Positions 7,707 through 44,249 of a DNA stretch of 64,000 nt are shown piece after piece. The stretch is from positions 62,001-126,000 of the forward strand of contig JAOASB010000013.1 in NCBI GenBank assembly GCA_025210375.1. The letters run 5' to 3'. The first letter of the stretch is position 1, and each line of letters opens with the position of its first letter. A program made the translations under genes and the position numbers. The notes under the pieces were generated by a model. That model did no database searches. It was not told the DNA's origin and saw only the letters and a program-made list of their open reading frames with translations. Source of the DNA: Maledivibacter sp. (GTDB lineage: Bacteria; Bacillota; Clostridia; Peptostreptococcales; Caminicellaceae).

Positions 7707-10700
7707 CTATTGAACAATTAAGTTAGATCTTCTCATATATGAATTTAATTCTTCAATATTGCGATTGAATATTTTACTCATTAAATACTCTTCTCTTCTA
7801 ACAATATTAGTTCCCAGTTTTGGTATTGGTAATACCGCTCTAAAACCATCCACCCACACTAAACTAAAACGCCTTCTTATATTCCCATCAACAAATAATT
7901 TGTAATCATATCTATAGGCTGATTTATCTGGATGACATGTAGCCCAATCTTCTTGAAATGCTTCTCTTTCATCATAATCATTCCAACTTATCTTGATATT
8001 CGGATTTAAATTAGATATTGCTTCGTTTTGGGACTCATCAACATTCCACTCACCACGAATAGCCTCGATGATATTACCCTCTTTCTCATAGACATAATTT
8101 GAATTACTAATCAACAACTCACTAAATTTAATTAAATGCTCTATATAATGAATTCCCTCATTCATTTCTCCAATTATAAAAAATACACGTATCATATTAT
8201 ATATTCCATATGTACCACCTTGATTAATGATGTACTGAACTATTGCTTCTCTCGTTTCTTCTTTTTCATAAAGAACAGCGGTAGGAAAATGACAATATTG
8301 CACAAACTCATTACCAAAGTATGATGGATAATTCATTTTGCTAAATGTATCATATAATTTAGTCAGTTTGCTATCTAAGCTGTATTCTATTTCTACTAAA
8401 TCACGCCAAAATTGAATAGATTTATAGGGCGCATCATTAACTCTACAAGCATAATATTCTTCTATATTCTCAATGTTAATACAATCCATATCATACTCAA
8501 ATATTTCTCCATCACTATAGGGAGAATAAGCAGATACATTATATAGATATCGTTGTAAAAATTCACTCTCAATGTTACATTTTTCTATAACCCACTTAAG
8601 ATGTTCCATTGAACCAGCATTATCTGAGGTTTTATTTATTGTTTCTAAAACGTTATATAGTTGATGACATTTCTTCTCCATTATATCGGCATCGTACCAG
8701 AAGCTTTGATGAGCAAGATACAAACACTCCGGTAATGCTCTACTCACTAATTGCTCTGCTCTGTAAGCTGGTCTTACCATACTATTATCTATACCGTAAA
8801 TCAGCAATTCATATTTTTTATCAATATCAACACTATCATACATAACTGCTAATTGAAATATAGATTCGCTCTGACTATTATATTCATCAATATCGTCTCT
8901 TAAGGTGTCTTTTAGAATTTTATCTAACAATCCTTTATTTGCAACCTTTTCAAATAGATTCTTATTAGATTTATAAATTGTAAACAACACTGTTTGTATA
9001 TATATAATGCTCTCGTAATTCAAGAGTTCTCTCAGAAATTTTTTCACCTGCAAAGGATCAAAATTAAGCTTTGAAATAAAAACCCCTAACATATGAGAAT
9101 GGTAATATCTTAACCATCCATTATAGATAAAATTATATGGCTTAATTACTTCCAACCACTCATCTAATATTTTTCTTGTATCATGATAATTATTATAAGC
9201 GATTCTAGTGATCTCCACTCCTAACTCAAACTCGCTTAATTTGTATCTACAATTATCTTTTTGTAGAATTGCTAAAAGTATATGTAACTCAATATGTCTT
9301 GACCATGATGGATAATTTCTTTGGTTCGCTTCATTAAATGCTTTCTTCAATTTTTCCTGATATTTATCTTCATCACTTAAAAGAGTATATATTGCTAATG
9401 TATTAGTGTAATATTTTTCGTCCTTATCCTCAATTCTATAAATTAGTTTTTCTCTAAATTCAATAGCTTCATCTGTTTTTTGTAACAAGATATTAATATA
9501 TTGATGTTCTACTAAGTTATAGGATAATACTTCTAACATGTATATATCCATATTCTCAACTAAAGTAGACAAATACTTCAACTCAAATTCCAAAGACGTT
9601 CTGATGAAGGAATGTTCTAGTTTATTATCATTTGCAACATAATCCATGTGTTTTACATTACTATCAGTTAACTTGGACTCACTTAATAACTTCTTGTAAA
9701 TATCATTCATGCCTTCATTTTTAATATTATATAGATAGTAACAAAGTCTCCCAATATTTTCATGATTTACTTTGACTGTTTCTATTGAAAACTTTTGCTT
9801 TACAAAAGGACTTATATCAACACCATTAGTTCTATGATATACCTCTGCGAAATCAGGAAAATTCTCTTCGGTTATAGCATCTCCAATATTCAAATTATCA
9901 TTGCTTAGTAAAAACTCCAATTCTTGTTCCTTGTATGTTGATAATAAATATAAAAATGTATTAGAATACGAATAATGCGGCTCTACATACATATATGATT
10001 TATTTCGTCCAATCAAATCATCTCTATATTCTTTTGAGATATAATACGAACCTAAATACCCTTCTAAGAGCCTTAACGATAAACATTTATAAGTATTTCT
10101 ATTTAATTCTGATCTTTTTAGACTTGTCCTTAGGAAAATATTTATCATGAAATCTCGATTAGAAAAGAGTTTTAATTCTCTTAATATTTCTGGTCTATCA
10201 TAATATTCTTTTTCTATTTTCTGATACAAAAAGAATTCTTGGAATCTCTTATGTCTAAACGACATATTCGTTTTTGTACCTTCATAATAACTTGCTTCAA
10301 AAAACAAATCTGTCAATGCTTCAATAATTGTATTAATATCACTAGGCGATTTCACCCCAAAGTTTTGCTTAATTATTTCTTGAGCTTTATCTAATGAAAT
10401 AGAATATGAGAGCTTCTTTTGCATTTGAAAAGATATTTCTTGGCATATTTCACATATTTTTTCTTGCTTAGGTTGTAGTAAAGAAAGTTCCCTAAGTTTT
10501 GAATAAGTTCTTATCCAATAAAATATAGCTAATTCAATAATTTCTATTTTGCTTGTTGTAAAATCTACATCTTCTATATTTTCCCACAAAATATTAGCTG
10601 AGAATATATCATCTATTTCACTTATCAGTTTTCCATTTTCAAGATTCTTCAGTTTTTTCTTTTTAATATCATTATTCTTTGAATCAAAGTACTTTTCTAT

Positions 10701-11768
10701 ATCATTAAATTTTAGTTTATCGAAAATATACTCGTTCCATAAAAATTCTTGTCTAAAATACGAAAGATTACTTGAATCTGATCTTGATGAAATTACTAAC
10801 CCCTTCACATCATTTCGCTTTGATAATTGCTTAATTGAATGGAGTATCTTACTAGCATCATAATATGGTACTTCGTCTAAACCATCAAATAGGTAAAAAT
10901 ATTTATTTCTTTCATTTCTATAGGATAAATCATAATCAGTCAATCTTTCTCTAATCAGATTTTCAATATTACCATTTATACACTCTCTTAACCTTATAAA
11001 TACTGGAATGCATACACATTCATCCTTCTTAGGCTTCTCAAAATAGAATGCATTAAATTTATCTGAAAAATCTTTGTAAAGTTTCTTCATTGCAACAGAT
11101 TTTCCAGTTCCCGCTGCACCTAATATTACTGCAAATTTATCTTTCGTCAAATTTGATATTAAGTCTTCTACAGTCCTTCCATTTGTAAAACTTAAATTTA
11201 GAAATTCATCTGATTGTAAAAAGGTATTATCTTCAATTGAAATAGCATCTCTTATAAATTCCCATTCTCTTGAATCGGAAAAATACATTTTATATAGATC
11301 TAGATTACTAGATTCTTTAACCATGTCTAGTATATTATCAGCTTGTAACCACTTGATCTCTATGTTATTTTTTTTAGCAATACGTGCTATATCTATTCTT
11401 GGCGTATCAGATCCCGAAAGTATCTCCTCATCAGTACAGACATGGCTTAATTCGGCATTTGTGTAAATATAAATAACATCTAATTTTCCTTTAAAATACT
11501 TCACTGCTTTTTTTAGTGACTTTCTAACCTGACGATATTTCGTGTCATTACTTTCACTTATAAAGAATTTGCACTGTGCTCCATACCATTTCTTTTCATC
11601 TTTATCCTCGACAGGTTGAAATTCTAATCCCGCCTCATTTATATTATAACTGTATTCATATGCTGTCTTTTTTCTATCTCGAAGAAAGAGAACTCTACAC
11701 ATGTCTTCAAAAGCTTTGGTTCTATCTTTATTTTTCCTATTAAAATCATACCAATCAGCTCTTACCAA
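7707..11768 (-). CDS. NACHT-type STAND NTPase with N-terminal PD-(D/E)XK-like nuclease, probable anti-phage protein
   Basis: 1353 residues. The first 150 look like an Mrr/restriction-type nuclease: E21 in FEDM, E49 in AGLEF, and Q65-x-K67 in GAQCKFF. A NACHT-type NTPase follows, with Walker A GAAGTGKS at 217-224 and Walker B FDGLDE at 294-299. The remaining ~900 residues are helical, repeat-like sequence without a known motif, presumably the sensor. Nuclease-NTPase-repeat architecture is that of Avs and bNACHT anti-phage proteins, which degrade DNA after sensing phage proteins. The likely start is TTG at 11768, 10 nt after AAAGGAG; a TATAAT box lies at 11826-11831. It appears to stand alone as cargo beside the oriT candidate. 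The exact Avs or bNACHT class is not determinable here. Confidence 0.85.
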   Translation of the reverse strand: MVRADWYDFNRKNKDRTKAFEDMCRVLFLRDRKKTAYEYSYNINEAGLEFQPVEDKDEKKWYGAQCKFFISESNDTKYRQVRKSLKKAVKYFKGKLDVIYIYTNAELSHVCTDEEILSGSDTPRIDIARIAKKNNIEIKWLQADNILDMVKESSNLDLYKMYFSDSREWEFIRDAISIEDNTFLQSDEFLNLSFTNGRTVEDLISNLTKDKFAVILGAAGTGKSVAMKKLYKDFSDKFNAFYFEKPKKDECVCIPVFIRLRECINGNIENLIRERLTDYDLSYRNERNKYFYLFDGLDEVPYYDASKILHSIKQLSKRNDVKGLVISSRSDSSNLSYFRQEFLWNEYIFDKLKFNDIEKYFDSKNNDIKKKKLKNLENGKLISEIDDIFSANILWENIEDVDFTTSKIEIIELAIFYWIRTYSKLRELSLLQPKQEKICEICQEISFQMQKKLSYSISLDKAQEIIKQNFGVKSPSDINTIIEALTDLFFEASYYEGTKTNMSFRHKRFQEFFLYQKIEKEYYDRPEILRELKLFSNRDFMINIFLRTSLKRSELNRNTYKCLSLRLLEGYLGSYYISKEYRDDLIGRNKSYMYVEPHYSYSNTFLYLLSTYKEQELEFLLSNDNLNIGDAITEENFPDFAEVYHRTNGVDISPFVKQKFSIETVKVNHENIGRLCYYLYNIKNEGMNDIYKKLLSESKLTDSNVKHMDYVANDNKLEHSFIRTSLEFELKYLSTLVENMDIYMLEVLSYNLVEHQYINILLQKTDEAIEFREKLIYRIEDKDEKYYTNTLAIYTLLSDEDKYQEKLKKAFNEANQRNYPSWSRHIELHILLAILQKDNCRYKLSEFELGVEITRIAYNNYHDTRKILDEWLEVIKPYNFIYNGWLRYYHSHMLGVFISKLNFDPLQVKKFLRELLNYESIIYIQTVLFTIYKSNKNLFEKVANKGLLDKILKDTLRDDIDEYNSQSESIFQLAVMYDSVDIDKKYELLIYGIDNSMVRPAYRAEQLVSRALPECLYLAHQSFWYDADIMEKKCHQLYNVLETINKTSDNAGSMEHLKWVIEKCNIESEFLQRYLYNVSAYSPYSDGEIFEYDMDCINIENIEEYYACRVNDAPYKSIQFWRDLVEIEYSLDSKLTKLYDTFSKMNYPSYFGNEFVQYCHFPTAVLYEKEETREAIVQYIINQGGTYGIYNMIRVFFIIGEMNEGIHYIEHLIKFSELLISNSNYVYEKEGNIIEAIRGEWNVDESQNEAISNLNPNIKISWNDYDEREAFQEDWATCHPDKSAYRYDYKLFVDGNIRRRFSLVWVDGFRAVLPIPKLGTNIVRREEYLMSKIFNRNIEELNSYMRRSNLIVQ

Positions 11769-15396: not shown

Positions 15397-18300
15397 CTAC
15401 AATGCTTCACCATCGCTATATTGCTCTACTATCGAAGCTGCTTCCTTTACATCTTCATCACCTATAATCGTATCAGCTTCCTTATTCATATCCAATAAAT
15501 GGTTCAATTCATTTTGACGTTTTAGTATGCGTTCCAGTGTTGATTGATGAGCAAATGGCTTTTCCCATTCTTCCTTTGCTTGATTCTTATTACGAGTCAA
15601 TTCTTCAATGGTCATTTCATGCTTTTCGATTCTCTTTTCAAAAGCTTCAAGGGTATTTTCTAACTTAATCATGTTGCCGTGAGGACTATCAGAGAATCCA
15701 ATGAAATAGGTCTTACTGCCATGTAAGGTCATACCTTGTTCCATATGAAAAGGACTCTTGGTAATAGATAACTCAAAGCCTTTTAGATTACCAACAGTAC
15801 GAGTCTCACCATCTTTCATGCCATTAAGAAGTGCTAACATGTATGTACCTGCCTTTTCTCTTTCATGAAAGACTTTACCTTCAATGGTTACTTTGAACTC
15901 TGTGGATGTATCCATATCCCTTTTCTCAATATCCTTTACAATACATTCAATGGCTTCTTCATGTCTTTTGATTTCCTGTGGATACCGATAGAGAAACCGA
16001 TCTTCAAGAGAATACTTGTTACTGTCATAAGCACCTTTTAAAAGGGTTAACCTAGAAACTTCATTATCCACTTCCATCTTTTCTTTAATCAAAGGATTAC
16101 CTGTGGCAATGGCTTTTACCTCAGCATAAGACAATACGGTTTCATCAATATCCTCAGCACTTCTTGATACCGATTTAGAAGTCATAATCTGAGATATAAA
16201 TCGCTGTTTATTCTCCACCAGTTGCCAGAGGTAAGAATCAAAAGTAGATTTGGTTACATACTTATAAATGTTTACTTCCTCATTTTCATTTCCCTGACGA
16301 ATTATGCGACCTTCTCGTTGCTCTAAACTTGATGGTTTCCAAGGGCAATCAAGGTGGTGGAGAGCCACAAGCTTTGATTGAATGTTCGTTCCTGTTCCCA
16401 TTTTAGGTGTTGAACCAATGATGATTCGCTTATTGCCACTACGCATGTCAGCAAATAGACTTTCTCTTTGGTGGTCACTCTTTGCATCATGTATAAAACA
16501 AATTTCCTCAGCAGGGACGCCTTTCTTAATCAGTTCTTCTTTTATATAGGGATATACTGAAAAACGCCCATCACTTGTGGGCGTTCCTGTATCAGAGAAG
16601 ATAATCTGTGTTCCTTTTATTTCACTGCTCTCCATGTATTCTTGAAAAACAGCTTCTATACAACGATTAACTTTGGAATCAGGGTCATTTGGTGCTTCTG
16701 AATCAAGGGTTCTTGGATCAAGTCCTAGAAGCCTTGCTTCATTGGTCACCTTCAACATGTTATCTATTCTTGGGTCAGCACCGCCCCTTATATGTTCTGC
16801 CCGTTCTGCAAAGGATGCCATCATTTCATCAATGTAATCATTACTCTCAGCTACTATGACCTTGGACTTGCCACCCTTTAATTTAGGCACTGGAAGATTG
16901 AGCATATCTGCCGTCTGTATGTCCGCCACATTCTTAAACATGGTCATAAGTTCAGGTAGATTAGTAAACTTAGCAAATCGATTCTTAATGCGATAGCCAG
17001 TTCCTTCTGGGGCAAGTTCTAAAGCTGATACTACCTCTCCAAACTGTGCTGCCCAACTATCAAAATGCTTTAATCCTCGGCTTTCCAGTTCCTTATTTTG
17101 AAGGTAGCGTTGCATAACAAATAATTCTGTCATGGAGTTACTGATGGGCGTTCCTGTAGCAAATACAACACCTTTTTCACCGCCATTTACCTCTTGAATA
17201 TATTGAGTCTTCATAAGCATATCACTAGCTTTCTTAGCTTTTGATTGTCCTACCCCACCTACATTACGCATCTTAGAAAAGACTGCACAATTCTTATAAT
17301 AATGGGCTTCGTCCAAATAAATAGCGTCCACACCCAACTCCTCAAAATTAATCACATTATCCTTTGGAGTATCATGTAAACGCTTAAGTTCAACTTCTAA
17401 CTTTTTCTTTTCTGCTTCCATCTGTTTTACTGACCAGTTCTGACCTTTTTCTGACTTGGACTGGTCAATACCATGAATCAGATCATTAATCTGTTTGTGT
17501 ATCATATGTTCTTGTCGTTCGATGGATACGGGGATTCTCTCGAACTGGCTATGACCGATAACAATGGCATCATAACTGCCTGTAGCAATTCTTGATACAA
17601 ACCGTTGCCTATTCTTCTTTTCAAAATCCTTCTTGGTGGTCACTAATACATTGGCATTGGGATAAAGCCTTAAAAACTCTGATCCAAAATCTTGTGTGAT
17701 ATGATTAGGCACTACGAAGATAGCTTTTTTAAGTATCCCCATACGTTTCTGTTCCATACAAGAGGCAATCATCTCAAAGGTCTTCCCTGCCCCTACCGTA
17801 TGTGCCAGTAAGGTATTGCCACCATAAATGGTTCTCGCAATTGCATTGACTTGATGGGGTCTTAGTTTAATATCGGGATTCATTTCAGGGAAGGTTAAAT
17901 GACTACCATCATATTCCCTTAATCTAATGTTATTAAAGTTTTGATTATAGAAATCCACATACTTCTTACGACGTTCAGGAGCTTTGAATATCCAATCTTT
18001 GAAAGCTTGCTTTACAAGACTTTGCTTTTCCCTTGCGAGCATAGTCTCTTTTTTATTTAAGACATATTTTACTTTGTCCCCTTCTTCTACTCTATCTTTC
18101 ACCGTCACATTTTTAAGATTCAAGGTATCCTCAATAATATAATAGGCATTCATACGCCTTGTACCAAAGGTTTCTTTAGCAGATACAGAGTCTCCATCTA
18201 GCCCTTTACCATTGATGGTATAAGATGTGTTGTAATTGTTGTAGGATAGACAGATTTCATCCCTTGCACCTGATCTGTTCTTATAGTAATTGGGGGTTTT

Positions 18301-21300
18301 AAGCAGTTCATAGATAAACTGTTCATAGTCATGATTTTCAATCCATGTAGTGCCAAGTCTTACGTCAATTTCACTGGCATCTAGGTCTTTGGGTTGTACT
18401 TTCTCTAAAGCTGTTACATTGCCAGAAAACAACTCAGTATTTATCTCTGCATAGACTTTAGCAAATTTCAGTTTTTCTCTCACATTACCTGATAAGTATT
18501 CATCGTATGTTTCATAACCAACATAGGGACTGTTCTCATCGTATCGTACAGGATTTAAAAAGATTTCTCCATTAAGTTCATGAACAATGTCCTCAACATC
18601 TTCATCATAAAGTTCTGCCATATAGGGTAAATCAATTTCACCTTTTTCATTTAAGGATACTGACAAAGCATCTCTTGCCGTATCAACAGAAGTAATCTTC
18701 TGACTAGGCTTAATGGTTTGTTTGGTAAAGATATCTGCCTTGGTGATTTTTTTATCTTCATCCATAACCTCTAATGAACAAAGTAGAGGATAATCGTTGT
18801 CTTCTCTAAAGGCTTGCATATTCATTTTTGATGAGATTGCCTTATACTTTTTTACAAAAGCATCATACTTGGTATTAAGGATTTGTTGTTTCTCTTTTAG
18901 AGCATCAAGGGTGCAACCTTCTACTTGCATGTTGATAATATCCCTTGTAATCTCTCTTAGCTCAATCATACCTTTAATACGTTCTAGCTTCTTACCTGTG
19001 ATATCTAACTTTCTCATATGGCTGTTTTCACGGTAATAGAGAATACTATCTAAGTAGGCATAGGTATAATTCTTTACATTAGGATTTGCAGGTATTAAAC
19101 CGTCTTCCTCTTCATCTTCACCGACTTCTCTTACATAAGGCTTGATTGACCCCCTAATAGACCTAACAGCCCCATTTAATCCTTCTTCAAGGTTAAAGGT
19201 TTCATCCTGAATCATACAGGTGGTATAACGACTGTCTTCACCATACATCCTTGTATCAAAGACCATCTCACCTAAACACATATGAGGGTTGTCTAGGAAG
19301 TATTGATTCATAGGTACGCCATTTTCATTCTCTCCTACCTCAAGCCAACTTGGATTCTTTACCGATAACCGCTCACGCTTTTGCAAGAACAAAATATCTG
19401 TGGTTACATCTGTTCCAGCCACTTCTTTAAATGCTGTATTAGGTAAACGAATAGCTCCTAGTAGTTCTGCTCTTTCTGCAATATACTTTCTTACACGGTC
19501 ATCTGCTTTATCGAGTGTCCCTTTAGATGTAACAAGAGCAATGATCCCATTTGGTCTGACTTTATCAAGGGTTTTGGCAATAAAATAATCGTGAATGAGA
19601 AAATTATGTTTGTTGTACTGCCTGTCATAGACCTTGTAATTTCCAAAGGGGATATTACCAATGGCTACATCAAAGAAATTATCTTTCATATTTGCCTTTT
19701 CATAACCATCAATTGTGATATTGGCATTTTGATAAAGTTGCTTCGCTATACGACCTGATAGATCATCTAGTTCCACCCCATAGAGTTTGGAATCTGTCAT
19801 GTTATCAGGTAAATGGGAGAAGAAATTACCTATACCCATACTCGGTTCTAAAATGCTACCACCAGTAAAACCTAACTGATCCAAGACTTGAAACATGGTA
19901 TTAATAACTACAGGAGATGTGTAATGGGCATTTGGTGTAGATTCTCTGGCACTACTGTACTCATCTGGAGACAACAACTGCTTTAATTCTTGGTATTCAT
20001 TTGCCCATGAACTATTATGGCTATCAAAAGCACTGGCAAGTCCACCCCATCCACTGTATTTAGCTAAGATGCTTTGCTCCTCAGCAGTAGCAAGGCGATT
20101 TTCTTCTTCAATAACACGTAATGTCTTGATGGCTTCAATGTTCTGTTTATACTTGGTCTTTGCACCACCAATTCCGATACCATCTTCAGGTTTGTAACTG
20201 TAATTGATTTTGGCGATTATATTTTCTGTTTCTACGGCATCCTTAGTAGCATCTGTGAGTTCATCTTCCTTAACTACTTTGCCATCAAGATCATTTGATG
20301 ATTCAATTGGTGAAGATGGCTCTTCATTATGTGGTTCAATAACATTTTCTATATCTGAATTCCTTTGAGCATCCGTTTTTGAAATTTCTACATCTTCACT
20401 GATTTCACTGTTCATTAGAAATGTATTATTATAAACCATTGTTTCAATATGCTTATAGGCTACTTCCCATAAATAACCGTAGGTGCTGTATGTGCCATTC
20501 TCAAGTTTAGCAAGCAAAAGATTATTGGCTGTAGTTTTGAACATATAGTTTTCATCTTCTAGCTCAAAAGTAATGTTTTTTTTCATGAGTATATCTTTTA
20601 CGGACTGAACCTTTTCATCATCTGAATCGGTACTACTCAAAATATATTCTTGGATTCGTTCCTTCTCATCATTTAAATCAGGTACATGTTGTATCACTTT
20701 TAAATGCTCATTAGGATTACTTAGAAAACCAACATTCCCATGTGATTCTTTTTCTTCAATTACTTCATCCTCTGGTATATCATTAGTGGTAACTAAATCT
20801 GTTTCAGTGGCTTTATAATTCTTAGCACTCTCAATATCTTCACCCGTATTATAAGGCTCTTTTATTTCTCCTTCTGCTGCCATTACTTCAAAGAGTTCTT
20901 CCTGCCATAAACTTTCCTTACCATTACTATCAAAGGTAATACTTTCATTGTTGTAATCTAGTAAATGTGCTTCTACTGGCATATATCCTTGAGATTCAAT
21001 ATTGCCTAACCATGTGCTTAGAAAATCATTAAGCTTTTCACTTAACTGAGGTGACCATTTGTTATCTTCCAAATAGACTTCTTGATAAATCCCTAAACTA
21101 TCTTGCTGAAAGGTTGCCGCCATAATGATTTCTCTTTCATGATCTATTATGAGTTCCATATTAGGGTCATACATCTGGTCACCGTTCTGGATAAAATAAT
21201 GTCTCATAGCAATTCGATTATAATCTAGTCGCTCAATCGTTAAGTCCATATAACCCTTAGATTTCAATTTAAGAAAACTATAACGTCCGTTGATAATACC

Positions 21301-23088
21301 TGTAGCAAGAGTGCTTAAATGGTCATAGTTCTTCTGAGAAATTGCTTTTTCTTCATCTACATAATCAGTACTTTTCGTGGCAATAGATTTAGACTCTGCT
21401 TCTCTTATTTCATCTATTTCATCAGGAATATCATAATCACCAAGTACTATAGATTCTTGTTCATCATTAAGTGGAGATAGAATATCTCCAGTATCAGTTT
21501 TAACTTCTACATGACTTTCTTCTAGAATACGCTCTTGATTATATGCTTCGTCAAACAGAGTAGGCTGCCTTTCAGTTTTAGGAATAGGCGGTTCTTCACC
21601 TTTATATCGTGGTTTAAAGTAGTCACCACTTTTAATAAGCCTCTCAATTCCTTTAACAGCTTTTGACCACGTTATTTTGATTTTTCGTCCATCATTGAGT
21701 CGAAGTCTTATACTTTTACTGTCATGATCTTGGAAACCTATAGTCTCAAATTTCTGAACAGATGGATCATCGCTTATGTTATATGAAAGCGTTCCACCTC
21801 CTGTACCATATTCATTTTTAAGAAATTCAGCCTTTTCTTTTGCTGTGGCTTTACCCGCAAAGAAATCTACAATTCTCTGTTTACCATTTTGAAAACTGCT
21901 TCCTCGATTGAGTTCATAACGAATCAGTTCATCATCTGTAATATCAGCCAAAACAAAAGAGCCATCGTATGATGACTCCTTAGTTGGTGTTACCTCGCTT
22001 TGTAAATGATTTCGTGAAGGACTATTTCCTCTGCTGAGGTTCTTATCATCTCCCTGTGTTTGTAGCTCTCGTAAAAGTTCTGTGGGTTGGGAATGGGGTC
22101 GGTTTTCAACATTTGTTCCTGTAGCACTTCCATTCGCCCCTGTGCTTCCTCGTTGACTTTCTGCATGATTTCCATCAACGTCCCCTCTGCTCTTAGCAGG
22201 CTGTACCTGTGAGGATATTCTTCCTTCAGATAATTCATGGCTCTCATGCCGTACTGCCCTATTTCCTGATTGCTCCCCGCTACTTCTAGTACTGGTTCGA
22301 GAAAGCCCTGTGGATTCATTTTGTAATCCAGTTCGACTGGTTTCATGACTTGCACTCCTTTCTTTTTCGATAGCTTTTATTTCTTTTTCAATATCCCTTA
22401 GAATTGATTCCGATAGGTTACTAACCACACTCCCTAGCCTAAAGATAAAAGCCTTTGTATTAAAATAGCTAATTACCTTAAACTCAGGTTCTACTTCCAT
22501 ACCACATCGTATAGCTGTCATAAAGTAAATGCTTTCTGTAAGTGTTGCTCTAAATTGTTCTTTAACCTTTACTGGGTCAAAATTAGATAATGGACTATTT
22601 TCAACATCTCTTTCAAAGCCACGATAAATCATTTGCTCCCACTTATCCAGTTCCATTTCTGTGGCAAGTCTCAAATAATCAGCTACTGTATCAATAGGAT
22701 ACTCTTTTTTTAGCAGATTCAGAAGAAGTGGTGTTTTTTCTTTATCCAGTTGCCAGAAAACAGGATGACTAAAACGATTTTCAACCCTCACTGTTGTATC
22801 TTTGATGTCAAAATAATTCTTTAAAGTTGGAACGCTTTTGCTATTATCAAAGACAGCTATGGACTTTGCACCCTTCTTAATCCAACGCCCTACTTTCTGA
22901 TTCCATGTTTTCATATCGGCAACGAAAGTAGCATCAGGTCTTTGAGCATAGATAAGAACTGCATCATCAAAGGTATGTTTGTACACTCTAGCATGGAAGG
23001 TTAAGAACTGCATCCATTCTTGACGGTCTTTCACAATCTCAGAAAGGGTATAGTCATAAATATCCTTTACCTTGTCATATCGCTTCAA
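15397..23088 (-). CDS. giant ArdC-like / N6-adenine methylase / SNF2-type helicase of conjugative elements
   Basis: About 2563 residues. The preferred start is TTG at 23088, 7 nt after AAAGGAG; an ATG at 23139 would overlap parB by 38 nt. Order of domains: an ArdC-N-like segment (about 20-110, [19 protein letters not shown]); a low-complexity linker (about 248-366); mixed regions of large polyvalent protein type; a DNA methylase core (about 1050-1250) with [11 protein letters not shown] and NIPFG, the latter in place of the usual NPPY/F; and an SF2 helicase (about 1750-2330) with Walker A TVGAGKT, DEAH box and [11 protein letters not shown] motif VI. Proteins of this kind are found in Tn1549/CTn5-type ICEs and probably protect or remodel incoming DNA. 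An out-of-frame tnpV-like gene is nested in the linker region. Confidence 0.9.
21990..22346 (-). CDS. tnpV: nested, out-of-frame TnpV family protein
   Basis: 118 residues read in the +1 frame of the giant methylase-helicase gene, entirely inside it. The ATG at 22346 has a perfect AAAGGAG at 22355-22361, 8 nt upstream. The product aligns without gaps to the free-standing TnpV at 42421-42777, with about 83 of 118 residues identical by my hand count, including [13 protein letters not shown] and [13 protein letters not shown]. Such protein-level conservation would not arise in a chance frame. TnpV is a small transposon-encoded protein first named in Tn4451 and its role is uncertain. The host frame here encodes only Ser/Gly/Arg/Asn-rich linker, which suggests overprinting. 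Confidence 0.85.
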
Positions 23089-23101
23089 GTCGTCTCTCCT
23101 T

Positions 23102-24133
23102 TCATAGCTCCATTTCTTCACCATTTGTATTGGCTTCAACTACTTCTGCCACCTTCAATGATTCATAATACATAGCTAATGCCTTATCAATGATGCTTAT
23201 AACTTCTGATTCCTCTTGGTCAGGCTTAAAATGTTTGACAAACACCTTCCCCCAATACTTAGGTGGCTTAGGTTTCTCAGCCTTTTCTTTCTTTTCGCCT
23301 CTAATAATGGCACTAGCTGAATCAAAGGTCAGTGGTGCTTTCTTATCAGCTCCACGTAAGTCCCTTGCCCTTTTCATATCAATCTTGAAGTTTTCTTCTG
23401 TAACAATAGCATGGACAATATCGAGACTTTCTTCTCTTAAATAAGAGAGATCAACACCTGCTCTGATAGCAATTTTTCCTTCGTCTACTAATTCCTTAAA
23501 TTCTTCGGGGAGTTTAGATATACGAAGATAACGAGCTACAGAATTTTTTGAGAGATTATATTCTTTGCCTACTTGCCCCATACTTGTCTCGAACTTCTTC
23601 CCCACTGGGGAAGAAGTTGACTCATCAATATTGGGTGATTTAGATAACCTTTCAATTTCTTCTAGTAAATCTGTTCTAAATCCCTGCTTCTTCATAGCAT
23701 CATGCCTTACAGATACAACCGTTGCTCTCTCAGAATGAGGTAAATCGCCAAAAGAACGTTGCATCGTATTGGTCTCTGTTACAATCAATAAAGCTTCTTC
23801 TTCTGTTAATCCTTCCTTCACAACAGCAGGTATCTCTTTTAAGCCAAGTATCTTACACGCTTCTACTCTATTATGCCCACTTAGAATTTCAAACTTAAGT
23901 CGTTTTTTCCTTACAACAATCGGCACTATCACACCAAATTGCCTGATACTCTCAACCATTTCATTAAGCCGTTCCCCTTCATACAATTTGAAGGGGTGGT
24001 TCTTAAATGGCACTAACTGCTCTATCTTAATGATATCCTGATTAGGTGTTTCTTTATTTTCTACATCGGGATCATAATCTTCTCCGAATATCGCCATAAA
24101 TGGCTGAACCTTTTTTACTTCACCTTTACTCAA
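23102..24133 (-). CDS. parB: ParB/Spo0J-like partition protein
   Basis: 343 residues. A ParB N-terminal nuclease-like/CTP-binding domain (about 35-125) carries [16 protein letters not shown] and [18 protein letters not shown] helix-turn-helix follows (about 195-215, [17 protein letters not shown]), then a charged C-terminal region. ParB proteins bind centromere-like sites and work with ParA to stabilise replicons, here presumably the circular ICE. It overlaps the end of parA by 8 nt and lies just upstream of the giant gene. Confidence 0.9.
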
Positions 24134-25266: not shown

Positions 25267-28200
25267 CTAAATCTTAATTTCTATCTCTTTAAGTACCTTC
25301 TGCAATTTATTATCAAGTATGATAATCCTACGTCTTTCTGCTTCTTCAGCTTTGTCATCATATTTGTCATAGGCATCTGAATATCTTATATTCATTTGTG
25401 CAATTACTACAGTATTAGGCTTTGATTTTAAGTAAGAAAGAAATTCCCCTTCTTTAATAAATAACATATTACCCTTTGAAATTAAATTATACATTCTATC
25501 ATCATTGGAGTATGACCAATACTGAGTTTTTATTGGATAACTATTATTTTTTGTAATACAATAATCCGCAGGTGATGTGCCATCAATTTTTAAAAAATGC
25601 TCAATATCTTTACTTGGTTTTAGAAGGCTATAATTCATTTCATTTGTATACGGATCAAAGGTTTCAAAGCTACTATCCTTTCCATAATACTCACCTGTTA
25701 CATCCTCAATAAATCTATCATCACATCTATGATCCTCATCACTTATAAAACTCCATTCAATCCAATAGTTTAACATTCGGACTTGTTCAAGAAGCTTATT
25801 TAAAAACTTCTTATCCATTATTCCAATAGACATACTATAGGCTTTTCGGCTCTTTTTATATTCTATAGAGCTATTATTATAAAGAATAAAATATTTCTGC
25901 TTTTCATGTACATGCCAAAAAGATTTATGAAATATACCATCATCAATTACATACTTCGCATCTTGAACATACCTCTTCATATCTAAGAATATTTCTTTTT
26001 TTGGAGGCAATGATTTAAGGTCGGAAACCCAGCTTCCTTGTATATTTGTTAACCAACTTTGTATCCACCCTTCAAATGTATAAATTGGGTTTTCGTCATT
26101 TGAAATAGACTGGGTTTTCCTATATTCATCAGCTATATAATACATTGCATTGTATTGTACATATTTTGATAAATCTTCTACAGATGTACCTAATCCATAT
26201 GAATTCTTACTATATTCGCTGGTTTTATATTGTTCATTCCATTGAGCTACTGTATCATTTGTAATCCCCCATGAAGAAATTATTTTATCACAATCTTCCA
26301 TAACTTTTCCTTCTGATTTTTGGAATATTTGTCCCAAATAATAATATACTTTAGGTACTATATCCAAGGTATCGAAATGAAATTCTACACTTTTCTTTTC
26401 TTTATTATATAGCTTTCTTGGTTGATATTTTACAATTTTTTTACTAACCACATCACATGATATTTCAACTTTTTTTGAGGGTCTAATGATCATTATAATC
26501 TCTTTAGCTAATTGTCTCTGTAAGATATTAATAGTTTTATTCGTTAATGCTATATGCTCTAAAACAGGTAGATATTTTATTACTATTAAAACATCTTCTT
26601 CAACTATTTTTCTTAAGGCAACTAGTAAATAAATAATTGCACTATCTTTATAATAAACATATTGTTTGTCCTTATATAACTCTGGTATATTATCATCAAA
26701 AATTAATTCTATAATCTTATCTATTATTTGTCCTTCTTTTAGCTTGTACAAGCTATAGATTGCATGCATAGCATACCAGCGCTTCTCTTTTTCTACATGG
26801 CCTAACATCTTAATTAAATAAATTGCTAAGCTTTCTTCTATTGAAAATATGTTTCTTTTACTTGCCTTATAAACTTCATCGCCAGAAGCAGGATGTACAT
26901 TTGTGATTTCTTCCGCACAACACCACTCTAATAATTGGCTACAATTTTCACAATCATCTATTGAAGATAAGCTTTCAATATATGAAAAGATTCTCCATGG
27001 CTCATAACATAAATAGGAAGAAGCATTCTTAACCATTTTTGACAAAATAGTATCATTATCAATCAAGAACATTCTAGATATATGATGTAAGTTCTTTTCT
27101 TTAAAAGACTCGGTCTTCTGGCTATATAGCTCTAAAATCTCATCTAGTTTTCTCTTATCTTCACGCCAATCCATTATCCTCGGATTATATTCCCCCCACT
27201 CATTTAAGTAATCTATAAGAATCTCAAAGCACTCATCATTTTCCCAGCAAGATGTTGTAGTATACATAATATCAAGTAATAATTCTATAACGCTTAGTTG
27301 ATTTTCATAGGCTGTATTCTCAAATACGAACTCTACTAATTTTCCACGGTCTTTATAATACATAGAATCCATTGTAGAGATTAATGATTTTTTATTTTGC
27401 TTAATTGTATTCTTATCTACATTATCCCAGCATAGTTTCTCGTTTACATATGATTCTAATTCTGTATTTCTAAATTTTTTTTCAATAAAACAATATTCAT
27501 CATTTAACTTTTTTATACAGTCAATCGAATCGTCATACTTATCCTTACTCCATTCGTAAATTTTTTCTATGATATGTCCATTTTCAAAACCACCAGACAA
27601 CTTTTCAATATCATATGATATAACTTGGATAATTCTTTCAGTTTTTTTTATACTCTCTCCTCTGAGTCTTGCTAGAATAATATTTACAATATTGTTATAT
27701 GATTCTCCATACTTAATATCTATGTTTGATAGTGCTGTTGCTGTTTCTACTGAAATTTTATGGTCTTGCAATAATTGTTCGATAATGTAGGGTATTGAAA
27801 TTTCAAAACCTAGTGCTACATAATCATCATCTCTATCTTCTAGTCTACATGCAGCAGCAATTGCAGATGATGGGTGTACTTTTGTTAATAGTTTATAAAT
27901 ATTTGATTTAGGAAGATGTTTGTTATCGTCTAATCTTTTATAACTGTCTTCTATAATTCGCACAAAATTATAAACAAGTTCAGATGATTTATTATCTGCT
28001 CTATAGTTTTCAGACAACTGCTTGAATAAGTCTATTCTTCTATATGCCTCTTCATCAACGCCAGTTGTAGCATTAATTGCCTTAAGAAAATAATCATATG
28101 CTAGTCTTCTATCAATTAATATTGCTTTATTTGAGCAATCCAAATAAAACTTCTTCAAATCATATGCTGATTGGGGATACTTATTCATTTTTGCATCAAG

Positions 28201-31200
28201 TTCTTTTAGATACCACGCTGCTAAATCTATATATTTTTTATCTTTTATAATATCACCAATAATCTTAAAGTGAAAATTATTATCAAGGTATCTATTATCT
28301 TGAAAGACCTTACAAAATTTTTTCAAGGTATTTTTATCTCGACTAAGCAACATGCAGAATATATTTCTTGTTATAATTCTATAATAATCATAAGAATTAT
28401 GATCGTTGTAAAATTGATAGCTTCCCCTTTCACAATTAGACCATTCTTTATTAAAATCATCCATATTTAGTCTTGGTGTATTATTACTATCTATCATCTT
28501 TAATCTAATAAAAAATGAATTAATTATAAAATCCAGAATTTTTTTTAGTTCATTCCGTCTTTCTCTTATCTCACTTTCAGTGTATCTTTCATACCTTTGA
28601 GAATCCGGTGACCAAAAATCATCAAAGCAATATTCTTCACCTTTTAAGTATTTCTTGAGAGCATAAAATCTAAATGCATACTCCTTAGGCAATTCTCCAT
28701 TCATTTCATAAAATGATATATATGAATAATCTATTGCTACTTCAGTGTTATCAGCTATATTCGTTGCTTCTTTAATTCTTCTTCTCTTCAATAACATTTC
28801 CATTAGATTAATTCTATACTTTAGCCCTGTAACATTTATTTGTTTTTCTTTTTCTATATGTTTAATGAGCCTTTCACCAATTGTCCAAAACTCATCTTTT
28901 ATAGAATAATTTAATTCTACGAAGGCAACAGCACATGCTGCAAACATATCTATATCATCGGAGTAACCAATTATTAACTCTGCTTTCTCTATGAATCCAT
29001 GTAATAATAAACTATAGGTGACATCGTAATATCCCTGTGAGGGATATGGACTCCATCTATGTAACCACTTTACAGCATCTTTAGCACCATATCTCATCGC
29101 TATATATATAGCCAATCTAGATATATCTATTTTTTCAACTCTATGATTTAAATTTCTATCAGTATCTTTCTCTTCTTTATACTGGTTTATTTTTATTAGA
29201 GAAGACTTAAAAAATTGATCTGCTAGTTTATAGTCTTCAAGTAGTGAATTTGTATATGTTTGTAACGTTAGTTCACTCAAAGAATGAAATTCTGATTTGA
29301 CTAGGATATACCGGTCAATGGTACTTTCAAATCCTAACTTCTTTGCCAACCCCATATTTTCTAATATAATTTCTTTTACTCCAGCATCAGTAGCTTTACA
29401 CTTTGTCTGTATGTATAATAATTTGTATGCATCTAACCTATACTTTTCATTACAGATTTCATCTATTGAAAAAGCACTTTTTATCCTTTTAGATATAATT
29501 TCATTTTTTTCATCTTCAATTAACGGAATACTAATGTTTTTAGTTGTATAAATAGAACTTAAAATCTCATCTAGTTTTTTTGCTTTTTCCAAAAATATAT
29601 GTAAATATTTTATAGAATAATAATCATCAAGACGTCTATTGTATAGGGTTTCTGCAATCTTCATAATTGCTGACTCGCTACTTTTAGCAGTAGTTCTTAA
29701 ATACTCCTCAAAGTCTTCATCTCTAAAAGTTATGATACCATTGCCAAAGTAAACACCTATTAAATATTCTGAGCAGGCACTCGCTAGTTTTTCAGTATTA
29801 TAATCAGTTGAACTTGTAATAATATCAACAGGAATTGGTCTGGGTAATTCGACTAATGCTCTACATAGTTCTTCGAAAGATATCATTTCTGAAGATATTC
29901 TACTATCTACTTTCCTTATTGCATCTTCAAATATTCCTTTTAAGTTCTTTCCATTTGGATTGAGATATTCTAAAGCTTCCCCAATATTATGAGATATCTT
30001 AGAAAAAACATAATACTGAACTCTTGGATTGCCATTAGTAAGTTGTCTTATCTCTTCACTTTGAATATCTGATACATTTTTATAAAACATATCTATATAA
30101 TTACGTTGCTCCTTTTTACTAAATCCTTTCAACTCAATCTGAACCGTTCCATAGGGCAATTCAAATTTATTTAATCGCTCTGTTCTTGATGTGACTAGAA
30201 TAGCAACGTTTTCTGGTAATGTAATTTTCATGAGTTTATCTGCAAAACACCTATCCCCCAGCACTTCTGATGCTGAATAACTATTGTCCACTGCATCCAA
30301 TATAACTAAAATAACCGCATTCTGATTTATTTTCTTTACATAATCAGATGCTTGGTAAAGTCTGGTTGATAAGCTTTTCAGATATTCACTTTCCTCCAAA
30401 TTTGTTCTAACTAGAAAAGGTGTATAGCATTTCAGTGCTAATTCATTACTCAATTGTATAATTGCATTTTTATATGTATGCAATGGTGTTGATGGATCTA
30501 AATATGAGCCACCACCAAAACAATCATACAATAATACTTCGGAACCACTCGGTAGACTATTCTCTAAATCAGATATTACACTTGTTTTTCCTATTCCACC
30601 AGTTGCATGTAAACAAATATGTTGCATTCTATTAATAACTATCTCCTTAACAATATCAGCACTCACATCTCGTTTAACATATTGTTGTGGTTTTATTATT
30701 TGTGAACTTGCTGGAAACAAACTATCAGGTATTGTATTAAAGAAACTTGCCACGATATTTTTATCAATTGGTTCCGCCTCATTTTCTTCAGGTGACATTT
30801 GCTTTCTTATAAACTGAATCAATTTATCATAATTTGCTTTCAAATCTAATATACCCAATTTGGCTAAAGAAGTGATTACCTCTGATTCCTGTATATCCCT
30901 TATTCCTGTACCACATTCACTGAAATCAATACTTTTTATAAACCCTATAAATTCAGCACTGCTTAATTTCGTGTTTTCATAAAACAATTTTAGATGCTGG
31001 TGATCTTTTTGGGGAATTAGTCTCTTTAACTCAATATACTTTGTACAGTTACTTTCTTCTATTGTTTCATGGTATTTATTTAATTGATTTTTAAATTTTT
31101 CATCTATTTCCCTATTAGTTACTAGTTTTAATTGCAATTTCTCTATATCTTTGGGGTATTTTTTTAAAAAGCCTTTATAGGTTTGAGCTAATCGTTGAAT

Positions 31201-31533
31201 TATTGAGTTGTCTTTTTTACTATTAGTAGTTGCTGATAGAGAAGAAAATGTCCAAGGCAAATCTCCATGACGAGTACTATATTTTAACTGCGAAAATATT
31301 ACTTTTGTAGCATCTTTATACTTTCGACCTCCAAAATACTCCGCTACATCTATTGATAGTAATGCATTTCCATCATCTTCAAATACTATACTATCTTCAA
31401 TATTTGGTCCCTCAACACATAATGCCTCAAAATCTGTATGAGGTTCTAATAGTTTTAATGCTTTCTTCGCAGACCAAATAAAATGAAAATCGTCTCCTGC
31501 ATTTGACTCTCTTGCCCCTGTCATTTCCTTCAT
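25267..31533 (-). CDS. giant Avs-like STAND NTPase with N-terminal Cap4-type (DUF4297) nuclease domain
   Basis: 2088 residues. The N-terminus (GDDFHFIWSAKKALKLL, then SIDVAEYFGG and Q82-x-K84 in FSQLKYS) matches the DUF4297/Cap4-type dsDNA nuclease. A STAND NTPase follows with Walker A TGGIGKTS at 311-318 and Walker B-like ILDAVDNS at 411-418. About 1500 residues of helical, TPR-like sequence complete it. This size and order are those of Avs anti-phage proteins, which recognise conserved phage proteins, assemble and cleave DNA. The ATG at 31533 follows GAGGTGG. No partner gene is visible; the gene is bracketed by an IS end remnant and a nearly complete IS3-family element. Which phage protein it senses cannot be predicted here. 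Confidence 0.87.
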   Translation of the reverse strand: MKEMTGARESNAGDDFHFIWSAKKALKLLEPHTDFEALCVEGPNIEDSIVFEDDGNALLSIDVAEYFGGRKYKDATKVIFSQLKYSTRHGDLPWTFSSLSATTNSKKDNSIIQRLAQTYKGFLKKYPKDIEKLQLKLVTNREIDEKFKNQLNKYHETIEESNCTKYIELKRLIPQKDHQHLKLFYENTKLSSAEFIGFIKSIDFSECGTGIRDIQESEVITSLAKLGILDLKANYDKLIQFIRKQMSPEENEAEPIDKNIVASFFNTIPDSLFPASSQIIKPQQYVKRDVSADIVKEIVINRMQHICLHATGGIGKTSVISDLENSLPSGSEVLLYDCFGGGSYLDPSTPLHTYKNAIIQLSNELALKCYTPFLVRTNLEESEYLKSLSTRLYQASDYVKKINQNAVILVILDAVDNSYSASEVLGDRCFADKLMKITLPENVAILVTSRTERLNKFELPYGTVQIELKGFSKKEQRNYIDMFYKNVSDIQSEEIRQLTNGNPRVQYYVFSKISHNIGEALEYLNPNGKNLKGIFEDAIRKVDSRISSEMISFEELCRALVELPRPIPVDIITSSTDYNTEKLASACSEYLIGVYFGNGIITFRDEDFEEYLRTTAKSSESAIMKIAETLYNRRLDDYYSIKYLHIFLEKAKKLDEILSSIYTTKNISIPLIEDEKNEIISKRIKSAFSIDEICNEKYRLDAYKLLYIQTKCKATDAGVKEIILENMGLAKKLGFESTIDRYILVKSEFHSLSELTLQTYTNSLLEDYKLADQFFKSSLIKINQYKEEKDTDRNLNHRVEKIDISRLAIYIAMRYGAKDAVKWLHRWSPYPSQGYYDVTYSLLLHGFIEKAELIIGYSDDIDMFAACAVAFVELNYSIKDEFWTIGERLIKHIEKEKQINVTGLKYRINLMEMLLKRRRIKEATNIADNTEVAIDYSYISFYEMNGELPKEYAFRFYALKKYLKGEEYCFDDFWSPDSQRYERYTESEIRERRNELKKILDFIINSFFIRLKMIDSNNTPRLNMDDFNKEWSNCERGSYQFYNDHNSYDYYRIITRNIFCMLLSRDKNTLKKFCKVFQDNRYLDNNFHFKIIGDIIKDKKYIDLAAWYLKELDAKMNKYPQSAYDLKKFYLDCSNKAILIDRRLAYDYFLKAINATTGVDEEAYRRIDLFKQLSENYRADNKSSELVYNFVRIIEDSYKRLDDNKHLPKSNIYKLLTKVHPSSAIAAACRLEDRDDDYVALGFEISIPYIIEQLLQDHKISVETATALSNIDIKYGESYNNIVNIILARLRGESIKKTERIIQVISYDIEKLSGGFENGHIIEKIYEWSKDKYDDSIDCIKKLNDEYCFIEKKFRNTELESYVNEKLCWDNVDKNTIKQNKKSLISTMDSMYYKDRGKLVEFVFENTAYENQLSVIELLLDIMYTTTSCWENDECFEILIDYLNEWGEYNPRIMDWREDKRKLDEILELYSQKTESFKEKNLHHISRMFLIDNDTILSKMVKNASSYLCYEPWRIFSYIESLSSIDDCENCSQLLEWCCAEEITNVHPASGDEVYKASKRNIFSIEESLAIYLIKMLGHVEKEKRWYAMHAIYSLYKLKEGQIIDKIIELIFDDNIPELYKDKQYVYYKDSAIIYLLVALRKIVEEDVLIVIKYLPVLEHIALTNKTINILQRQLAKEIIMIIRPSKKVEISCDVVSKKIVKYQPRKLYNKEKKSVEFHFDTLDIVPKVYYYLGQIFQKSEGKVMEDCDKIISSWGITNDTVAQWNEQYKTSEYSKNSYGLGTSVEDLSKYVQYNAMYYIADEYRKTQSISNDENPIYTFEGWIQSWLTNIQGSWVSDLKSLPPKKEIFLDMKRYVQDAKYVIDDGIFHKSFWHVHEKQKYFILYNNSSIEYKKSRKAYSMSIGIMDKKFLNKLLEQVRMLNYWIEWSFISDEDHRCDDRFIEDVTGEYYGKDSSFETFDPYTNEMNYSLLKPSKDIEHFLKIDGTSPADYCITKNNSYPIKTQYWSYSNDDRMYNLISKGNMLFIKEGEFLSYLKSKPNTVVIAQMNIRYSDAYDKYDDKAEEAERRRIIILDNKLQKVLKEIEIKI

Positions 31534-42420: not shown

Positions 42421-42777
42421 TCATCTTGGCATATACACTATTTCACTAAGTACAATTTCTTCTGCTCTCGCTCTTATCATTTCCCTGTGCTTATAGCTCT
42501 CGTAAAAATTCTCTGGATCTAATATCGGGATTTTCATTAACATCTGCTTTTGCAAAACTTCCATCATTTGATGAGCTTCCTCATTGACTTTATACATGGT
42601 TTCCATCAATGTCCCTTCTGCTCTCAATAGACTGTATCTATACGGATTCTCATTCTTTAAATAACTCATGGCTATACTTCCATATTTGCCTATTTTAAGT
42701 CTAGCGTTCGATACTTCTATAACAGGTTCTAGAAATCCTTGCTTAGTCATTCTGTAGTCAAGCTCAACTGGTTTCAT
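42421..42777 (-). CDS. tnpV: TnpV family protein
   Basis: 118 residues, [19 protein letters not shown] at the start, [15 protein letters not shown] in the middle and [15 protein letters not shown] near the end. This is the TnpV family first named in Tn4451, whose role is not established. An AGGGGG site precedes the ATG. It is the gene nearest rlmD, about 115 nt from its stop. A gapless, about 70% identical copy is nested inside the giant methylase-helicase gene at 21990-22346. Confidence 0.85.
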   Translation of the reverse strand: MKPVELDYRMTKQGFLEPVIEVSNARLKIGKYGSIAMSYLKNENPYRYSLLRAEGTLMETMYKVNEEAHQMMEVLQKQMLMKIPILDPENFYESYKHREMIRARAEEIVLSEIVYMPR

Positions 42778-42893: not shown

Positions 42894-44249
42894 TCACCTA
42901 CTTATTCGTACAATAGTCTCCACATGCGGCGTATGGGGAAACATATCTACACACTTAACTTTTTCAACGATATAATCACTTTCCTCATTTATTTGTTTTA
43001 AATTCTCCGCTAGGGTTTTAGGATTACATGAAATATATATAATCTCTTTTGCTTTAAATTCTAAGATTTTGCTTAACGCTTTGGGATTAACCCCTACTCT
43101 AGGTGGATCTAGTATGATTATATCGGGCTTTTCATTTAATTCATCAATCTTTTTCAGTACATCTCCAGCAATAAAATGACAATTATTTAATCCATTGTTT
43201 GAGGCATTATGATTTGCAGCATCTACTGCTTCTTCAACTATTTCTATCCCTATTACCTTCTTAGCCTTTTGTGCAACTATCTGACCAATGGTACCTGTCC
43301 CGCAGTAGAGATCAAAAACTGTTTTATTATCTTTATCTTCAATAAAATCCAAAGCAGTTTTATATAAAACCTCTGCCCCTAATGTATTTGTTTGGAAAAA
43401 TGAAAATGGAGATATCTTAAACCTTAATCCGAGAAGTTCATCATAAAAATAATCCTGTCCGTATAAGATTTCCATTTTATCACATTTAACTGCATCGGCC
43501 AAATTATCGTTAAGTATATGGATGACTCCCTTTATTTCTCCCTGAAGCTCAACCTCAAGAAGGTTATTAACATAGTCAGTCAAATCAATATCTAACTGTG
43601 TGGATGTAACTAAAACCACCAACATTTCACCTGTGTTTAAACCCTTCCTTACAATAAGATGTCTTAAATATCCTTTATGAGTCTTATTAACATAGTGTGG
43701 AATTTCTCTTTCATTAAAGTATTGTAGGTTTAATTTCAGTATGTCGTTGAAATCTTCATCAACCAATTTACATTGATTCACTGTTACAACAGAGTTAAAC
43801 TGTCCTCTTTTATGCATTCCTAGGGTCATTTCTCCACCCTTTATTTCATCACCAAAGGAATATTCCATTTTATTTCTATATCCATATACCTCTGGACTTT
43901 TTTCAATACCAAGGAATTCATAATCATGGATTCCCGCATCATCAATTAGTTTTTTTACTAAATCGGCTTTTATTTGAAGTTGTATATCATAGTCAACAGT
44001 TTGCCTGGCACATCCTCCACAAAGTCCAAAATGTGAACAGAATGATTCTGATTCAAAGGGGGACTGCTTAATAACTTCGATTAATTTGCCTTCGCAGTAC
44101 TCCCTACGATTCTTCTTTATTCTAGCCCTTACCGTCTGTCCCTTCAAGGCATTTTTTATGAAAACTTTTTTTCCTTCAAGTTCTCCTATACCCTTTGCGG
44201 GAAACTCCATATCCATTATTTCAACTTCTACTATTTGTCCTTTTTTCAA
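42894..44249 (-). CDS. rlmD: 23S rRNA (uracil-5-)-methyltransferase, RlmD/RumA type
   Basis: 451 residues. N-terminal TRAM domain (about 1-58), cysteines C71, C77 and C80 for a 4Fe-4S cluster, then the SAM-dependent methylase with LYCGTGTIGQ, DPPRVGV and the catalytic-cysteine segment YISCNPKTL. The reaction is methylation of uridine C5 in 23S rRNA; RlmCD-type double specificity is possible in Firmicutes. The gene is intact to its stop. The mobile region starts just beyond its 3' end, and rum-type genes are known integration sites of some streptococcal ICEs, so this is the likely target. Confidence 0.92.
   Translation of the reverse strand: MKKGQIVEVEIMDMEFPAKGIGELEGKKVFIKNALKGQTVRARIKKNRREYCEGKLIEVIKQSPFESESFCSHFGLCGGCARQTVDYDIQLQIKADLVKKLIDDAGIHDYEFLGIEKSPEVYGYRNKMEYSFGDEIKGGEMTLGMHKRGQFNSVVTVNQCKLVDEDFNDILKLNLQYFNEREIPHYVNKTHKGYLRHLIVRKGLNTGEMLVVLVTSTQLDIDLTDYVNNLLEVELQGEIKGVIHILNDNLADAVKCDKMEILYGQDYFYDELLGLRFKISPFSFFQTNTLGAEVLYKTALDFIEDKDNKTVFDLYCGTGTIGQIVAQKAKKVIGIEIVEEAVDAANHNASNNGLNNCHFIAGDVLKKIDELNEKPDIIILDPPRVGVNPKALSKILEFKAKEIIYISCNPKTLAENLKQINEESDYIVEKVKCVDMFPHTPHVETIVRISR

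Follow-up and report, generated by a model that had tools for sequence, protein, structure and literature searches.

Can a single stretch of 357 bp within a giant gene encode two proteins on the same strand? The question is raised by a methylase-helicase gene in the window, which is the whole 64,000-nucleotide stretch of Maledivibacter DNA that was analysed, since a complete tnpV gene appears to lie inside this host gene in another reading frame. The features that concern this question are the following.

15397–23139, minus strand: host gene, methylase-helicase, 2,580 amino acids, TTG start
22336–23097, minus strand: host ArdC-like N-terminal domain (A1 profile match G000:C13:84336-85097)
22355–22361, minus strand: Shine-Dalgarno AAAGGAG, 8 nt 5' of the nested ATG
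21990–22346, minus strand: nested tnpV, 118 codons plus stop, +1 frame of the host (Pfam PF14198, E 8e-22)
20980–21330, minus strand: host DUF6908 domain, amino acids 604–720
18952–20187, minus strand: host N6-adenine methylase region, Eco57I-like, from domain and profile matches
16291–17871, minus strand: host SNF2-type helicase region, amino acids 1757–2283 (ResIII, SNF2-rel_dom, Helicase_C)
42421–42777, minus strand: free-standing tnpV paralogue

The host protein consists, in order, of an ArdC-like N-terminus, a linker, DUF6908, an Eco57I-like methylase and a SNF2-type helicase. The ArdC-like domain, for which a homologous Listeria protein is named by NCBI ('ArdC-like ssDNA-binding domain-containing'), lies directly 5' of the nested tnpV and overlaps it slightly. 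Methylase and helicase follow each other as in the giant SNF2/N6-methylase proteins of conjugative elements, annotated as 'SNF2-related protein' or 'helicase-related protein', and more than 1,000 plasmid records align across at least 80% of this methylase-helicase part. The host also shows a distant likeness to DarB of phage P1, which likewise joins an N6-methylase and a SNF2-type helicase in a single chain. The host methylase aligns with P1-like plasmids, and a scan of viral contigs with this methylase gave no relative. The N-terminus is short in DarB-type proteins and in several proteobacterial hosts (E. coli L246, Delftia L236, Agrobacterium L237, Shewanella L245), and no nested TnpV can be recognised in them. 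Judging from its architecture only, the host may, like DarB, protect incoming DNA from restriction.

The preliminary description of this DNA had placed a complete 118-codon tnpV at 21990–22346, with an ATG and an AAAGGAG 8 nt upstream. These coordinates are confirmed, on the minus strand: the ATG is at 22346, the stop ends at 21990, and the product is a complete protein of 118 amino acids. Its start is 793 nt from that of the host, giving the +1 frame that had been claimed, and the host ORF is open throughout; TnpV codon positions 1/2/3 correspond to host positions 2/3/1 in the overlap. The product matches the Pfam TnpV profile at 77.8 bits (gathering cut-off 27) over positions 6–111 of 111, and both copies of the window, nested and free-standing, match it at 77–78 bits. 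Where a hand count had given about 83 identities between the two, alignment gives exactly 83/118, with no gaps. The nested product is a full-length member of the family PF14198 (tnpV of Tn4451/Tn4453 and relatives), but while the members described in the literature stand free, next to serine recombinase genes, this one lies wholly inside another gene, in a different frame.

Across the overlap, the host sequence has the Ser/Gly/Arg/Asn-rich composition noted earlier, and is rich in Gln as well. Random synonymous recoding of the window's nested gene, preserving TnpV, introduces a mean of 11 host-frame stops, and 0/100,000 recoded sequences were stop-free; when the host linker is preserved in its place, the TnpV frame stays open in 3.5% of cases. 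A chance ORF is ruled out by the Pfam homology together with these recoding results.

The genome of the window contains five TnpV genes, two of them in the window and one of these nested, and a Pfam search of 60 relatives identified eight further sites with nested copies, without exception in the same frame. The A1 profile, representing the host N-terminal domain, was run on named genomes, 291 Clostridia genomes and 398 of the phylum; the 291 Clostridia were also searched with A6, which represents the host methylase. Among distinct giant ArdC-type hosts that have the N-terminal domain, a long open frame and sufficient flanking sequence, 134/135 carry TnpV at the same place, at offset 1, and none at offset 2, so that the nested gene sought by the preliminary description in homologous giant genes is found in nearly all of them; the sole host without a detectable TnpV is L264. 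One frame relation is common to all 143 nested instances, and the other frame is never used. Five further cases without TnpV are proteins of 650–1,050 residues with a partial N-terminal match only, and a set of shorter proteins (L180–L188, L194) possesses the ArdC-like domain and no TnpV. In L098, L123 and L136 the nested ORF is intact despite a stop or frameshift in the host (L078 is shifted), several of these loci being from draft assemblies. Two clostridial hosts lacking the ArdC-like domain, L265 and L266, have +1 ORFs 5' of the methylase, of 104 and 87 codons (L265:4472-4783; reverse complement of L266:6698-6958), that of L265 being a weak TnpV match. No nested TnpV was found in three further clostridial hosts (L257, L258, L272). 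At the level of sequence comparison, this distribution shows a nested arrangement inherited with the host gene across the Bacillota.

Substitutions were compared in 46 independent, non-overlapping pairs of nested loci. In the overlap, divergence at TnpV positions 1/2/3 is 0.163/0.105/0.296, and the values for host positions 1/2/3 in the adjacent upstream host domain are 0.186/0.130/0.414. The fastest position in the overlap is TnpV position 3 (host position 1) in 46/46 pairs, and the slowest, averaged over pairs, is host position 3 (TnpV position 2), while just upstream host position 3 is the fastest, again in 46/46 pairs. Since the third position of TnpV is the fastest inside, and that of the host upstream, the governing frame switches at the overlap. 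At the amino-acid level, TnpV has diverged by 0.206, and the host by 0.386 within the overlap and by 0.243 upstream of it. Read as codon patterns, these values demonstrate purifying selection on the nested TnpV frame. The idea that the nested ORF is an untranslated relic, open through codon bias or host constraint alone, can be dismissed as scarcely credible, since host constraint would conserve host positions 1 and 2 and instead position 1 is the fastest in every pair and position 3 the slowest on average, the nested protein is better conserved than the adjacent host domain, its Shine-Dalgarno is conserved, and it is intact in the several broken hosts listed above.

The host frame contains 0 stops in 126 distinct nested genes, against a mean of 8.6 in the equivalent frame of 73 free-standing tnpV, none of which is stop-free. 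A host stop (TAA, TAG or TGA) is formed at any junction where a TnpV codon ending in T is followed by AA, AG or GA; such junctions are used 0/4,731 times in nested genes, compared with 627/2,657 in free-standing tnpV. By this measure the host frame is kept open through the overlap, the claim being one of openness and not of constraint on individual residues. At 30–40% amino-acid divergence, the third position of TnpV has changed by 0.434 in nested genes and 0.546 in free ones, which points to a weak extra constraint on the nested copies, explained in part by stop avoidance. The host frame is poorly conserved here, and may itself contribute little beyond staying open. Neither stops or frameshifts in the nested frame of close relatives, nor selection acting on the host frame only, which the preliminary description had named as evidence against it, were observed; the conservation of the nested frame and the per-frame substitution patterns agree with its proposal of a same-strand gene within a gene, both frames being under selection. 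It is very probable, on these codon patterns, that the 357 bp encode two proteins on one strand, a confidence that covers double coding and not the role of TnpV.

How the second protein might be made is suggested by its start region. A Shine-Dalgarno match of at least 5 nt precedes an ATG in 107/125 nested loci, compared with 8% and 5% for same-frame control ATGs, a contrast somewhat flattered because the best of several ATGs was taken for each nested gene. A programmed frameshift fusion, in place of separate initiation, was considered and is not needed, because the ATG with its Shine-Dalgarno is conserved. Ribosomes would start within the host message at this conserved signal and produce TnpV, and other ribosomes would read on in the host frame, producing a disordered segment that tethers the methylase-helicase to the ArdC-like N-terminus. 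Nesting would hold both products on one transcript and in one unit of inheritance. The distances of host N-terminal domains and of TnpV are correlated (r = 0.895; 0/999 permutations as high), in keeping with joint inheritance, a trivial consequence of nesting that shows no interaction.

A TnpV match is present in about a third of Clostridia genomes, and a free copy lies only 20 kb from the nested gene in the window. This abundance, and the tolerance of the linker, would fit a recent capture, in which a free tnpV was inserted into the host and the frame stayed open by luck. Such an event is nonetheless most improbable, given the same place and frame in 134/135 hosts across the Bacillota, and the stops that free tnpV carry in the host-equivalent frame, with which an insertion would break the host. 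The phylogeny also opposes it. Nested and free labels change 8 times in a tree of 152 TnpV sequences and 6 times in one of 87, compared with about 49 and 29 when shuffled; the trees are unrooted, with 117 columns and few deep forks resolved. Nested TnpV as a single clade is rejected (p-AU 1.2e-6), a large group of free TnpV lies among nested sequences, and the window's free copy falls within a supported nested group (100/90 starred), adjoining the nested gene of L021. All six label changes of the smaller tree can be read as escapes from the nested state. Because it branches inside a nested clade, the free copy at 42421–42777 probably derives from a nested gene, and not the reverse. The conserved position refutes recent capture at the window locus; what stays viable is one ancient capture that preceded the family's spread. 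The origin put forward in the preliminary description, overprinting or capture of tnpV DNA, has to be amended accordingly, the nesting being ancient and near-universal and the window's free copy looking like a derivative of a nested one. Free-standing tnpV genes, that of the window included, would be copies that left the nested site and were taken over by recombinase-bearing elements.

The surroundings are those of a mobile element. ParA and ParB genes lie upstream of the host gene; RadC, a DUF3991/Toprim protein and a VirD4-type coupling protein are encoded downstream. Two large serine recombinases are found at 33.4–37.7 kb. Further features of this context are listed below.

42894–44249, minus strand: uracil-5-methyltransferase gene (tRNA/rRNA uracil-5-methyltransferase domains), close to the free tnpV and the recombinases
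25267–31533, minus strand: 2,088-residue protein with the P-loop-like motif HATGGIGKTS, between the ParA gene and the recombinases
7707–11768, minus strand: 1,353-residue protein of the transfer region, with no Pfam match at 1e-4

The first of these is plausibly an integration site of the 'rum' type, a gene reported as an ICE insertion site in Streptococcus suis (PMC9815147). In the same species, mobilizable elements with a tnpV of their own are reported to prefer the snf2 genes of ICEs as insertion sites (PMC9815147); if these snf2 genes hold a nested tnpV, such an insertion adds a free copy to a gene already carrying one. The 25267–31533 protein resembles, by eye, a STAND/NACHT-type ATPase, and is possibly defence cargo.

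What TnpV does is a separate matter. Its AlphaFold model (pLDDT 88.4, pTM 0.69) consists of a short beta hairpin and four helices. A fold search with this model gave no PDB match at E 0.001 or better, which is not evidence for a new fold; the best VIA-align Z is 5.6, to unrelated helical proteins. An excisionase-like (Xis) accessory role in recombination, with the nesting incidental, has some appeal, as the free copy of the window is at the same element end as the two serine recombinase genes, and a role of Tn4451 TnpV in excision was once proposed from homology with lambda Xis, as cited in PMC3158075. No solved structure is clearly like the TnpV model, however, and TnpX is, according to the title of a study cited in PMC5704250 (ref. 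55), the only element-encoded protein required for transposition of Tn4451 and its family. This report weakens the excision idea, and I consider such a role unlikely. Because nested copies are near-perfectly restricted to the methylase-helicase gene, I favour, though only tentatively, a TnpV that works together with this protein over a recombination accessory; TnpV would then most likely be a small partner or regulator of the methylase-helicase in DNA transfer or element establishment. TnpV must also be useful without the host, because free-standing tnpV are common in elements that may lack it.

Nested ORFs were also identified beyond the Bacillota. Plasmids of Kocuria, Nocardia, Rhodococcus, Arthrobacter and Corynebacterium have a helicase frame that stays open 5' of its annotated start, through a +1 ORF (extended frames L238:5389-11058, L243:1781-9142, L244:3503-9100, L247:3335-9481 and L248:3101-7972), and the helicase genes seem to begin well before that annotated start. 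This upstream frame begins with a shared xGQLSLExLW-type motif, less clear in Corynebacterium, which I take to resemble a sliding-clamp-binding peptide. Aligned together, the five actinobacterial nested ORFs match the TnpV profile with an hhalign probability of 96.1 (E 3.6e-9), the Corynebacterium member being the least clear.

In Campylobacter jejuni and C. coli plasmids, C. peloridis, Helicobacter winghamensis and H. suis, the host likewise has a +1 nested ORF, of 158–258 codons, in the N-terminus of the SNF2 gene (L235:5513-5986, L249:92-565, L250:3001-3474, L251:2560-3333, L252:3001-3477), preceded by AAGGAG or AGGAG before the ATG in C. jejuni, H. winghamensis and H. suis. Between C. jejuni and C. 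peloridis, the positions of the nested frame change 24/10/60 times, as in a coding gene, and 73/157 residues of the host protein differ in the overlap compared with 52/500 downstream. Most of this ORF is held by 207 plasmid records, nearly all from Campylobacter, and among the records listed the SNF2 gene is mostly annotated over it. Homology to TnpV was suggestive by eye, and is rejected on an hhalign probability of 0.2% and a TnpV profile E of 0.07; the ORF would belong to a different or unresolved family, with no detectable TnpV similarity.

Two accounts of how the nesting arose can be set out, both of them refinements of double coding and not alternatives to it. In the first, an ArdC-like gene, tnpV and a methylase-helicase gene were adjacent, and an ancient read-through fused the flanking genes, the host linker being the overprinted frame. 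ArdC-like domains without TnpV do occur in the shorter proteins mentioned above, and the actinobacterial hosts, in which no ArdC match was detected, have TnpV near the N-terminus, before the methylase. TnpV also looks senior, as host divergence in the overlap is high and host composition there is dictated by TnpV codons. Against this, no locus was found with the three genes still separate in that order, and although NCBI draws tnpV and helicase as separate in Kocuria, the helicase frame is open upstream through tnpV. I regard such a fusion as quite possible, if somewhat improbable.

In the second account, the host, disordered linker included, existed before TnpV, which arose inside it by overprinting, and all free TnpV, including that of Tn4451, derive from it. 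Six changes suffice on the 87-sequence tree, and the scattering of free groups among nested ones fits repeated escape; the linker fairly easily leaves the TnpV frame open, as the recoding shows; the Campylobacter and Helicobacter hosts have TnpV-unlike nested ORFs at the same place, as if the site breeds ORFs; and the N-terminus is short in several hosts without a nested gene. The linker may just as well owe its composition to TnpV, however, and the tree is unrooted; I regard de novo birth, like the fusion, as quite possible, if somewhat improbable. A wider version is more doubtful, namely that the disordered N-terminal segment is a cradle of overprinted genes, where TnpV would have been born before the bacillotan and actinobacterial hosts split, unrelated nested proteins would have arisen in Campylobacter and Helicobacter, and all free TnpV, that of Tn4451 among them, would have escaped.

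Few convincing same-strand nested genes are known in bacteria, and most of these are limited to close relatives. No report of a nested tnpV was found in the open-access literature searched; subscription papers were outside this scope, and priority is not established. Same-strand nested or overprinted genes are best known in viruses (PMC8227390), and the present case is like them in its full +1 nesting, its own start, the constraint on two frames and the disordered partner; it differs in extending across a gene family of conjugative elements, in at least two bacterial phyla, with repeated apparent escape. The nested tnpV is an unusually widespread and mostly unannotated bacterial case of one DNA stretch coding for two proteins, testable across more than 100 diverged hosts through per-codon signatures of double coding, with the free paralogues as a natural control. 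It also links TnpV, an orphan among mobile-element proteins, to one specific partner gene, which gives a concrete hypothesis on its role.

Current annotation has a systematic gap here, in that either the host is kept and the nested gene missed, or, in actinobacteria, the nested gene is kept and the helicase cut short. In RefSeq plasmids of Enterococcus faecalis, E. wangshanyuanii and Virgibacillus (three records, from an incomplete gene table), a 'SNF2-related protein' is annotated and the nested TnpV is missing. In the actinobacterial plasmids, the NCBI label of the +1 ORF is 'TnpV protein' (Kocuria) or 'hypothetical protein', with the helicase start placed downstream.
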